Shown one piece after another: positions 31,196 to 33,011 of a DNA stretch of 64,000 bases. Each line of letters opens with the position of its first letter. Position 1 is the stretch's first letter. The translations under genes were made by a program, and so were the position numbers. Source of the DNA: Endozoicomonas sp. G2_2 (lineage in GTDB: Bacteria > Pseudomonadota > Gammaproteobacteria > Nevskiales > Salinisphaeraceae); contig NZ_JAGHQU010000008.1 in NCBI RefSeq assembly GCF_017744135.1, forward strand, positions 62,001-126,000. The letters run 5' to 3'. The notes below the pieces were generated by a model, which saw only the letters and a list, made by a program, of their open reading frames with translations, had not been told where the DNA came from and searched no databases.

Positions 31196-31843
31196 ATGGC
31201 AATGACGGATTGGGACGCCTGCGAGCAGCAGCTCGCGGCAGGCATCGAGACGCTGGGGGTGGCGGTCTCGAAAAGCGCGCAGGTGCAGCTGATCGCCTAT
31301 CTTCGCGAGCTGTCGACGTGGAATGCCACCTATAACCTCACGGCCGTGCGTGATCCGCTGGCCATGGTGACGCGGCATCTGCTCGACAGTCTCGCGGTGC
31401 TGGATTTCGTTACCGGCGCGGCGGTGGCGGATATCGGCAGCGGGCCCGGCCTGCCCGGGCTGGTGATTGCGATCGTGCGCCCGCGCATGGCGGTGACCGT
31501 GGTCGAAGCCAATCGCAAGAAGGCAGCGTTTCTGCGCCATGCGCGTCGGCGGCTCGGTCTCGAAAACGTCACCGTCGCGCAGGAGCGGGTCGAAGCCTGG
31601 CAGCCGCCCGAGAAATTCGATTGCGTGATCTGCCGCGCCTTTGCCGCGGCCGACGAATGCGCGCGCCTGGCCGGCCACGTTGTTGCCCCTGGCGGGCGTT
31701 TCCTGTTGATGAAGGGGCGCGATCCGGCGGCGGAACTGTCTGCGCTGCCGCTGGACTTCCGGCACGTCGACACTGTCTCGCTTGCCGTGCCGGGGCTGGC
31801 GGCGGAGCGGCATCTCGCGATTCTGGAGCCGGGCCTGATCTAG
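31196..31843 (+). CDS. rsmG: 16S rRNA (guanine527-N7) methyltransferase RsmG
   Basis: 215 aa. SAM motif VADIGSGPGLPGLVIAIVRP, preceded by the GidB signature WNATYNLTAVRDPLAMVTRHLLDSL (in two parts). It acts on the 530 loop of 16S rRNA; loss causes low-level streptomycin resistance. It precedes parAB, as in most gammaproteobacteria, but here a structured element separates it from parA. mnmG is not adjacent upstream. ATG 31196 or 31202 may start it. Confidence 0.93.
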   Translation: MAMTDWDACEQQLAAGIETLGVAVSKSAQVQLIAYLRELSTWNATYNLTAVRDPLAMVTRHLLDSLAVLDFVTGAAVADIGSGPGLPGLVIAIVRPRMAVTVVEANRKKAAFLRHARRRLGLENVTVAQERVEAWQPPEKFDCVICRAFAAADECARLAGHVVAPGGRFLLMKGRDPAAELSALPLDFRHVDTVSLAVPGLAAERHLAILEPGLI

Positions 31844-31883
31844 GCGCCGGCGCGCGGCGGGTCACAGCAGGGCGCCGAGTCCA

Positions 31884-31908
31884 AGGGCCTGTTGCCGTTT
31901 CATACGAG
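31884..31908 (+). repeat. Left terminal inverted repeat
   Basis: 25 bases beginning AGGGCCTGTTGCC, exact reverse complement of 32128-32152. It begins 41 bases after the rsmG stop codon. Confidence 0.85.
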
Positions 31909-32027
31909 TCCGCGCCAAGGACTGTTTTCCGGCAAGACGAGGCGTAGCGCGCGCCGCGCAGTCATTCTGCGCAAGCGGGCTAGAACGCTGGATTGCCAGA
32001 AAACAGCCCTTGTCCCGAAGGGTTGGG

Positions 32028-32113
32028 CCGCAAATCATGCCCTGCGGCGTTGCGAGTCTTGATCGTGGCACGCCACGATCGGCCACTCGCGCCTTGCAGA
32101 ACACGATTTGCGG
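32028..32113. repeat. Nested inverted repeats inside the element
   Basis: Three concentric arm pairs: CCGCAAATC (32028-32036) with GATTTGCGG (32105-32113); GCGAGT (32052-32057) with ACTCGC (32085-32090); GATCGTGGC (32061-32069) with GCCACGATC (32072-32080, 2-base loop). As RNA this would fold into one long interrupted stem. Confidence 0.75.
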
Positions 32114-32127
32114 ACGCCAACGCGGCG

Positions 32128-32152
32128 CTCGTATGAAACGGCAACAGGCCCT
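32128..32152 (-). repeat. Right terminal inverted repeat
   Basis: 25 bases ending GGCAACAGGCCCT, exact reverse complement of 31884-31908. It abuts the parA translation start region and leaves no recognisable Shine-Dalgarno between it and the ATG at 32166. Confidence 0.85.
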
Positions 32153-32165
32153 AGACTGAGCGCCC

Positions 32166-33011
32166 ATGAGCAATATCATCGCCATTGCCAACCAGAAAGG
32201 CGGCGTGGGCAAGACCACTACGAGCATCAATCTCGCCGCGGCCCTGGCCGAGGCCGAGCAGCGCGTGCTGCTCGTGGACATGGATGCGCAGGGCAACGCC
32301 ACGATGGGCGTGGGCGTGGACAAGAACGCGCTCGACGCCACGGTCTGCGACTTTCTGCTCGGCGACAAGGGCGTGTCGGAAGCGCTGCAGGTGGTACTCG
32401 ACGGCGAGTTCTTTCTGCTCGGCGCGAATGGCGACATGACGGCCGCCGAGGTGGGCCTGCGCGATCGCAAGAACGGTCGCCTGGCGCTCAAGAAGGCGCT
32501 CGCGGAAATATCCGACAGCTTCGATTACGTGGTCATCGACTGCCCGCCGGCGTTGTCCATGCTCACGGTCAACGCGCTGGCCGCGGCGCGCGGCGTGATC
32601 ATCCCCATGCAGTGCGAGTACTACGCGCTGGAGGGGTTGTCCGATCTGCTCGAAACGATCGAGAGCGTGCGCAAGATGATGAACCCGGATCTGATCATCG
32701 AAGGCGTGCTGCGCACCATGTTCGATCCGCGCAACCGGCTGACCGGCGACGTGTCGGCGCAGCTCACCGACTACTTCGGCAGCGCGGTCTACAACACCGT
32801 GATTCCGCGCAACGTCCGTCTGGCCGAAGCACCCAGTCACGGCGTGCCGATCATGCATTACGATAACGCCGCCTCGGGCGCCGCCGCCTATCGCGCGCTG
32901 GCCGCCGAGATTCTGGGGCGCGACGACAGCGAGATCATCGATGCGCCGCAAAAGGGCGCGCGCCGCGCGGTATCGTCCCTGTTCGGTCGGCGTCGGCGCT
33001 CGGCCGGCTGA
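32166..33011 (+). CDS. parA: Chromosome-partitioning ATPase ParA (Soj)
   Basis: 281 aa. Deviant Walker A KGGVGKTT at residues 11-18 (N-terminal IIAIANQKGGVGKTTTSINL), Walker A' VLLVDMDAQGNAT and Walker B DYVVIDCPPAL. It lacks an N-terminal HTH, so it is the chromosomal Soj type. It forms an ATP-dependent nucleoid gradient that moves ParB-parS complexes. The C-terminal ~20 residues are basic (RRAVSSLFGRRRRSAG). parB follows 30 bases later. Confidence 0.95.
   Translation: MSNIIAIANQKGGVGKTTTSINLAAALAEAEQRVLLVDMDAQGNATMGVGVDKNALDATVCDFLLGDKGVSEALQVVLDGEFFLLGANGDMTAAEVGLRDRKNGRLALKKALAEISDSFDYVVIDCPPALSMLTVNALAAARGVIIPMQCEYYALEGLSDLLETIESVRKMMNPDLIIEGVLRTMFDPRNRLTGDVSAQLTDYFGSAVYNTVIPRNVRLAEAPSHGVPIMHYDNAASGAAAYRALAAEILGRDDSEIIDAPQKGARRAVSSLFGRRRRSAG

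Follow-up and report, generated by a model that had tools for sequence, protein, structure and literature searches.

The window analysed here is a 64,000-nucleotide stretch of DNA from a Salinisphaera genome. Between two of its genes, rsmG and parA, lies an element of 269 bp as drawn (31884-32152). The features of the locus are listed in Table 1. Note that, when the flanking TA is assigned to the target, the element measures 267 bp (31885-32151, GGG...CCC). A first description made from the letters alone, the sequence-only reading, had portrayed a self-complementary sequence with perfect 25 bp terminal repeats, and these are indeed exact reverse complements at 25 of 25 positions. The inner pair that it gave, matching at 17 of 19 bases, was found by eye, and the hairpin at 32028-32113 is present as described. 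Nearly the whole element was said to fold on itself; the predicted folding energies are -169.5 kcal/mol (plus strand) and -180.9 kcal/mol (minus strand). The corresponding z-scores are -13.2 and -15.1, and none of 200 shuffles was equally stable. As also stated, the right end lies 13 bases from the parA ATG (32166) and the element carries no transposase: two open reading frames tested over it (31862-32491, minus strand, and 31621-31947, plus strand) have no Pfam match. Nor does this copy have a clean target duplication, with AA at its left junction and TA at its right. Rfam 15, applied at the gathering score, gave no match over the window; on 20 element loci, Rfam returned two tRNAs and nothing else. 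A terminator scan placed one weak site within the element, on the minus strand, where 0.5 were expected.

Table 1. Coordinates of the element, its parts and its neighbours in the window
Feature	Position	Strand	Remark
Non-autonomous mobile element (MITE type)	31884..32152	.	Multi-copy; empty site in relatives; covariance model 272.3 bits
Left terminal inverted repeat	31884..31908	+	Outer bases match the G007 insertion sequence at 17/18
Right terminal inverted repeat	32128..32152	-	
Arm A hairpin, 79 nt	31925..32003	+	
Mini-hairpin CCC-GAA-GGG, between the arms	32014..32022	+	Three pairs kept in 98.6% of cells, 46 elements
Arm B hairpin, 78 nt, arm A module in inverted orientation	32032..32109	-	
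Left target-site position, AA in the window copy	31883..31884	.	TA in 59/69 copies
Right target-site TA	32152..32153	.	
TAGACT, -10-like parA hexamer, restored over the right junction	32152..32157	+	Putative promoter element
rsmG, upstream neighbour	31196..31843	+	Name from the sequence-only reading
parA, downstream neighbour	32166..33011	+	Name from the sequence-only reading

Among the identities first proposed for the element was a MITE. Both further copies and empty sites were found. In the element's own genome BLAST gives 11 near-full-length copies, ten of them 86-100% identical and one 73%, and fragments besides. A covariance model placed the family in at least 24 distinct places in this genome (150 of 2997 candidates scored), among them one single arm and one weak match at 35 bits. 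The terminal repeat pattern was present in 14 of 14 genomes of the genus, and a control pattern in none. The rsmG-parA spacer has no element in G005, G007 and G003, which are the three closest relatives by rsmG identity. Hence, the sequence is multi-copy, the spacer varies between relatives, and the MITE proposal stands. We conclude that the element is mobile DNA, a non-autonomous MITE-type insertion. It is short and has no transposase, terminal inverted repeats bound it, its copies are dispersed, and it has an empty site and, at the level of the family, a target duplication.

This duplication is apparent in 69 full-length copies from the genus, being fetched loci with a BLAST match of more than 240 query bases after removal of duplicate loci. 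TA is found at the left junction in 59 of 69, at the right in 53 and at both junctions in 45, where TA makes up 2.0% of flank dinucleotides. Most often, the target TA is within CTAG. All 11 copies preceded by TT have C-TA at the right end, so the duplication is of two bases and one of four bases is ruled out. Two empty alleles carry a single TA (L002 compared with G006, and L008 compared with G003). These come from a check that covered six joined sites, L002 and L006 to L010, with joined sites L003, L004 and L005 outside it. Two were clean, three were gapped or unclear (L007, L009 and L010) and one had no spanning hit (L006); for L002 the single TA was kept in 1 of 7 spanning hits. A stop codon at the junction closes an open frame of at least 100 codons at 44 of 138 junction sides; the counts for the remaining two frames are 30 and 16. 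These counts argue only weakly for landings that supply stop codons.

The parA side of the insertion deserves separate description. The hexamer TAGACT is 14 bases upstream of the parA ATG in the window and in G003, G005 and G007, while in G004, G011 and G012 that position is taken by TAGGAT. The spacer of G005, G007 and G003 reads GAGTCCATTAGACTGAGCGGCC-ATG. In the window the same words flank the element: GAGTCCA, then the element, then AGACTGAGCGCCC-ATG. The sequence-only reading had the element displacing the parA Shine-Dalgarno sequence. This reading is rejected, since the element-free relatives G003, G005 and G007, which carry TAGACTGAGCGGCC-ATG, have no obvious one either. The distance between TAGACT and ATG suggests a leaderless or near-leaderless parA transcript, and such a transcript would fit the missing Shine-Dalgarno sequence, whether the element is present or absent. 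As drawn, the element ends with the first T of TAGACT. Hence, the right junction restores the hexamer. Conceivably, parAB has taken over this copy as a promoter or regulator, with the old -35 sequence ATAACA cut off and the terminal repeat supplying the upstream half. The retained position of TAGACT speaks for this, as does ATAACA-N18-TAGACT in G003, G005 and G007, of which ATAACA is absent beside the window insertion. However, the terminal repeat has no good -35 element (the best matches 2 of 6 bases, by our own count), and a promoter scan gave only TAGACT-N16-TATCAT, which extends into parA. We consider such recruitment rather unlikely.

The fold of the family, about 270 bp in all, has a terminal stem, two inverted hairpin arms of about 79 nt and, between them, a CCC/GGG mini-hairpin. 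Its consensus of 80 pairs was derived from 41 elements (alignment A1), and 70 of the 80 pairs have double changes. In this alignment 94.3% of cells are paired, compared with 36-40% for slid partners. A1 comprises 15 of the 69 genus copies, together with 26 from a set of 41 diverged or additional loci; truncated or redundant loci and those with uncertain ends were omitted (L033, L034, L037, L040, L049, L108, L243, L286-L289, L293, L295, L297 and L300). The structure was then transferred, through the window copy (L001), to 45 held-out elements aligned by sequence alone. These come from other genera, and some from other classes, and none was used to derive the structure. In this second alignment of 46 (A5, which excludes all genus copies other than L001, and also L330, L414-L418, L420-L423, L425, L427-L431 and L436), 90.6% of pair cells hold, compared with 34-41% for slid partners. 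The covariation score is 0.527, and 0.157 after shuffling. The sequence-only reading had made its RNA proposal depend on covariation in the stems, and covariation strongly supports them.

The two arms are related to each other. The reverse complement of arm B agrees with arm A at a mean identity of 0.61, compared with 0.50 for shuffled sequence, and exceeds the same-strand value in 45 of 46 elements. In the complete genome G205, 26 of the 29 arm matches listed (of 75) form 13 inverted pairs, 105-106 bp apart from start to start. Conservation is not confined to the pairs: unpaired and paired columns have 1.02 and 0.92 bits in arm A, and 1.05 and 1.19 bits in arm B. Simple correction of a palindrome does not predict that unpaired arm columns should be about as conserved as paired ones. 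In an alignment of both arms of 31 of the 46 A5 elements (A6; L345, with a differing arm A tip, was dropped), there are a few sequence types of arm tip, for example GAGGAGAGAAGTTTGGTNATTCCAAATGAACGACGAG, and the arm in which a type occurs, A or B, varies from element to element. It is as if hairpin tips had been swapped between arms.

Among diverged relatives, the interior is common and the ends differ. Within G040, L291 and L294 are 92% identical in their interiors and 46% in their ends; for L291 and L292 the values are 89% and 48%. This genome has two clearly different end types plus an intermediate third; AGAACYTATCCGYGAATTGC is an example of an end type found in it. The genome of the window also has several, including AGGAATCTCTGATTAAG and AGGACCTGTGAACACTG. 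These comparisons indicate that terminal repeats have been exchanged around a conserved interior.

We turn now to the enzyme that might move such an element. Shared ends in some genomes make mobilisation by IS5-family transposases the best-supported mechanism, and probably the right one. In G007 (L116/L261), nearly identical end pairs, AGGGCGTGTTGCCGTTTC, enclose an 857-bp insertion sequence whose protein matches NCBIfam model NF033580, of the IS5 family. Only the outer 18-19 bases of the window element resemble this insertion sequence beyond chance level, and so the earlier suggestion of a dead pair of insertion sequence ends is not supported. An interior decayed from this transposase can also be dismissed: the G007 transposase protein, compared with 87 element rows, had a best E of 0.30, for a 21-residue hit. 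In three other genomes, an IS5-family insertion sequence and a resident element share 17-20 outer bases. Briefly, two insertion sequences of G006 have ends, CTAGGGCGTGTTGAGGTTTC, that coincide with the left end of L379 for 20 bases and with its right end for 19; in G205 the match to the resident element is 17 of 18; in G001 one insertion sequence end equals an end of L079 over 18 bases. Unlike the elements with which they share these bases, insertion sequences of the NF033580 type are 811-866 bp long and have a transposase gene.

Agreement of this kind is not universal. In G359, one of five elements agrees with the insertion sequence ends (17 of 19 bases) and the other four do not. In G404, none of four elements resembles the insertion sequence at its ends. 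G003 has a broken insertion sequence with ends of the GCCGTTT type, unlike L326, whose ends are of the GAGGTTTC type. No NF033580-family transposase was found in the window's own genome. It is one of 11 without the NF033580 type among 20 genomes searched; all 11, and thus ten carriers besides this genome, have matches to the element family. Three loci were considered as an autonomous element and rejected by eye. The long open reading frames of L254 (a 2.2-kb end pair) and L250 (4.1 kb) were taken for host genes, and L284 has an IS5-like gene with different ends. Model R1, run on seven IS5-family loci, found no two-arm fold except for one match, outside the insertion sequence, at L263. At L379:818-1950 (G006:C6), an element is followed head to tail by an IS5-family insertion sequence and by one end of a second element, all joined at CTAG. 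The family's own ends thus serve as targets, and a compound like this one offers a possible route by which different ends might meet.

The family is widespread. At E <=1e-4, model R1 found it in 104 of 369 genomes (83 of 271 genera) in a sample of the class, and in 116 of 398 genomes (60 of 213 genera) in a sample of the phylum, or about 28-29% of the genomes sampled. Both samples contain the window's genome and they overlap in some others. Copy numbers per genome are lower bounds, given strict filters and at most five (class) or four (phylum) candidates scored. Across the phylum, most matches listed are 265-290 bp long; a few phylum-level genomes have matches below about 220 bp, and these could represent other palindromes. 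The whole model is matched at 206-231 bits by plasmids of Azotobacter chroococcum, Halomonas sp. PA16-9 and Pseudomonas aeruginosa PA83, and a Methylophaga frappieri plasmid has a shortened match at 56 bits. The window element itself was not found in this plasmid search, where a few plasmids carry other members. A phage search gave no match, and nor did a search of E. coli genomes with L337. L337 (G431) and L339 (G205), from genomes of different families, are about 90% identical in interior and ends, which hints at transfer between hosts. In the literature collection searched, short family sequence strings returned no paper, and in searches by topic no title or abstract start describes the family.

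How does the family compare with known systems? BIME/REP sequences are REP hairpins without target-duplicating terminal repeats. Hence, the earlier description of the element as BIME-like holds only loosely: two inverted hairpins are there, but the family regularly has terminal repeats and a TA target. Note that BIMEs are set apart here by this definition and not by REP consensus sequences. Correia/NEMIS elements have a palindromic form and a TA target, and RU-1 is ERIC. The window element is longer than RU-1, which is 127 bp (PMC2759123), in a comparison made by description. ERIC and other enterobacterial palindromic repeats are reported as multi-copy and variable in copy number, and MITEs in general as mostly intergenic (PMC10969869). 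The same source gives Correia/NEMIS as a Neisseria MITE of about 200 bp, with more than 120 copies, that can carry promoters and can be cut by RNase III. Compared by description, those elements differ from the window family in being reported from Neisseria, and the available part of the account describes no exchange of ends around a conserved interior. MITEPsy1 of Pseudomonas syringae is, like the window family, gene-less with a CTAG target (CTAG or YTAA); it is mobilised in vivo and its family is given as 'IS5?' (PMC3189936). It differs in its unrelated ends, its shorter length (100 nt, with 18-nt repeats) and its 4-nt duplication, and no two-arm interior is described in the available part of that report. 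QMITE1 and QMITE2 of Coxiella burnetii, too, are MITEs of a gammaproteobacterium; their repeats are 21-29 nt long and they fold very stably (PMC5896051). Their sizes are different, at about 400 and 190 bp, and QMITE1 is reported there to lack an orthologue in other genomes.

We favour, with a probability of about 0.7, a MITE-type element that is moved in trans by IS5-family transposases and whose interior is selected as a paired-hairpin cassette. The transposase of another insertion sequence, of the NF033580 type or a relative, would recognise the outer 18-20 bases or so. It would move the element into TA, preferably CTAG, with duplication of the TA. Since the ends begin with G and end with C, insertion at TA would rebuild TAG on the left and, on the right, the -10-like TAGACT of parA. 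The interior, two inverted hairpins of about 79 nt plus the CCC/GGG mini-hairpin, would keep its fold while the terminal repeats change type. Its conservation suggests that it may work in cis, helping the element to spread or to survive, and folded or protein-bound DNA is the likeliest form for this. Exchanged ends, in turn, might let the element use whichever transposase is resident. More speculatively, the interior could be a structured DNA cassette that behaves selfishly. Its pair of inverted hairpins, nearly fixed in spacing and selected across proteobacteria, would swap terminal repeats to fit IS5-type transposases and outlive any single host transposon; recognition of the hairpins by a host protein or a transposase complex might be how it acts. 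We regard this extension as possible and hold it tentatively. If it were true, the identity of a non-autonomous element would lie in its folded core and not its ends. MITEs are usually defined by their ends, with interiors taken as leftovers; here, the interior is conserved and the ends replaced. The unusual part is the double-hairpin interior, class- and phylum-wide and with exchangeable ends. This raises the question of what a folded interior does in a gene-less transposon, and of how new ends are acquired. The family also matters for annotation: where a copy lands at the edge of a gene it can recreate a stop codon or a promoter hexamer, and this seems to have happened at parA.

Logically, if one RNA strand were the selected molecule, non-Watson-Crick pairs of the G-T kind should exceed those of the A-C kind throughout. 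In the held-out elements, GT:AC is 95:16 in arm A, 16:46 in arm B and 12:14 in the terminal stem. For the first alignment, where the structure itself was drawn with G-T pairs allowed, the values are 64:23, 9:10 and 23:23. Two conserved pairs contribute heavily, one of them G-T, in arm A (33 of 45), the other A-C, in arm B (32 of 45). Leaving out the single conserved pair gives 62:15 for arm A and 16:14 for arm B, so one pair makes up nearly all of the bias of arm B and a third of that of arm A. Without a G-T excess in arm B and the terminal stem, no strand of a whole-element transcript is favoured, and we reject one whole-element RNA strand as the selected molecule. The residual excess in arm A is compatible with a role for that arm as RNA or as a single strand. 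With arm B an inverted copy of arm A, the conserved G-T of the one and A-C of the other are what a hairpin module keeping its own polarity in each arm would give, and not what one transcript would.

These counts bear on the proposal, made in the sequence-only reading, of a structured RNA controlling parAB. In its fuller form the RNA would be cotranscribed with neighbouring genes, would stabilise, process or insulate the mRNA, and would be retained for its benefit to the host. Such benefit has been proposed for other palindromic repeats. The fold is very strong on both strands, covariation is strong, the excess in arm A persists in every count (95:16, 62:15 and 64:23), and junction stops close long open frames at 44 of 138 sides, more than the 30 and 16 counted for the other frames. 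Against this stand arm B, which has no G-T excess in any count (16:46, 16:14 and 9:10), the even terminal stem (12:14 and 23:23) and the lack of an Rfam match. Hence, what survives of the RNA proposal is the covarying stems, while the pair bias does not single out RNA. We judge a host-serving RNA unlikely.

An ordinary MITE with a functionless interior is the simpler alternative. Here, template switching or gene conversion would homogenise the palindrome, and horizontal spread would account for its conservation. Gene conversion between arms could indeed add compensatory changes without selection, and L337 and L339 are alike in interior and ends. Stable stem-loops are, moreover, described as common in bacterial MITEs (PMC10969869). 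Homogenisation should, however, erase mismatches, and the G-T (33 of 45) and A-C (32 of 45) pairs are conserved instead; nor does it sit well with unpaired columns about as conserved as paired ones, or with most matches listed being 265-290 bp over a phylum. This alternative is doubtful, though still a possibility to be taken seriously. A further suggestion is that the interior moves itself, for example through a single-strand DNA transposase that recognises hairpins, with terminal repeats being secondary. REP doublets have a layout of paired inverted hairpins, which the arms resemble, and one copy in the window's genome is a single arm without a partner (L430:222-317; G000:C29:4521-4616). Yet the TA duplications flank the terminal repeats on their outer side, and 26 of the 29 arm matches listed for G205 (of 75) are in inverted pairs. 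We consider self-mobility of the interior very improbable.

Some individual copies merit a brief description. In G002, a different family member has inserted independently in the same rsmG-parA spacer (L243:2150-2427; 76.7 bits with model R1). The copy at L009:1501-1781 (G000:C33:77894-78174) appears, by eye, to break the start of a putative gene that is continuous in G005 and G007, and it has no TA duplication. L085 and L100 have the right flank alone in common. L083 (G012) and L099 (G011) share flanks on both sides, which places that insertion before the split of the two species.
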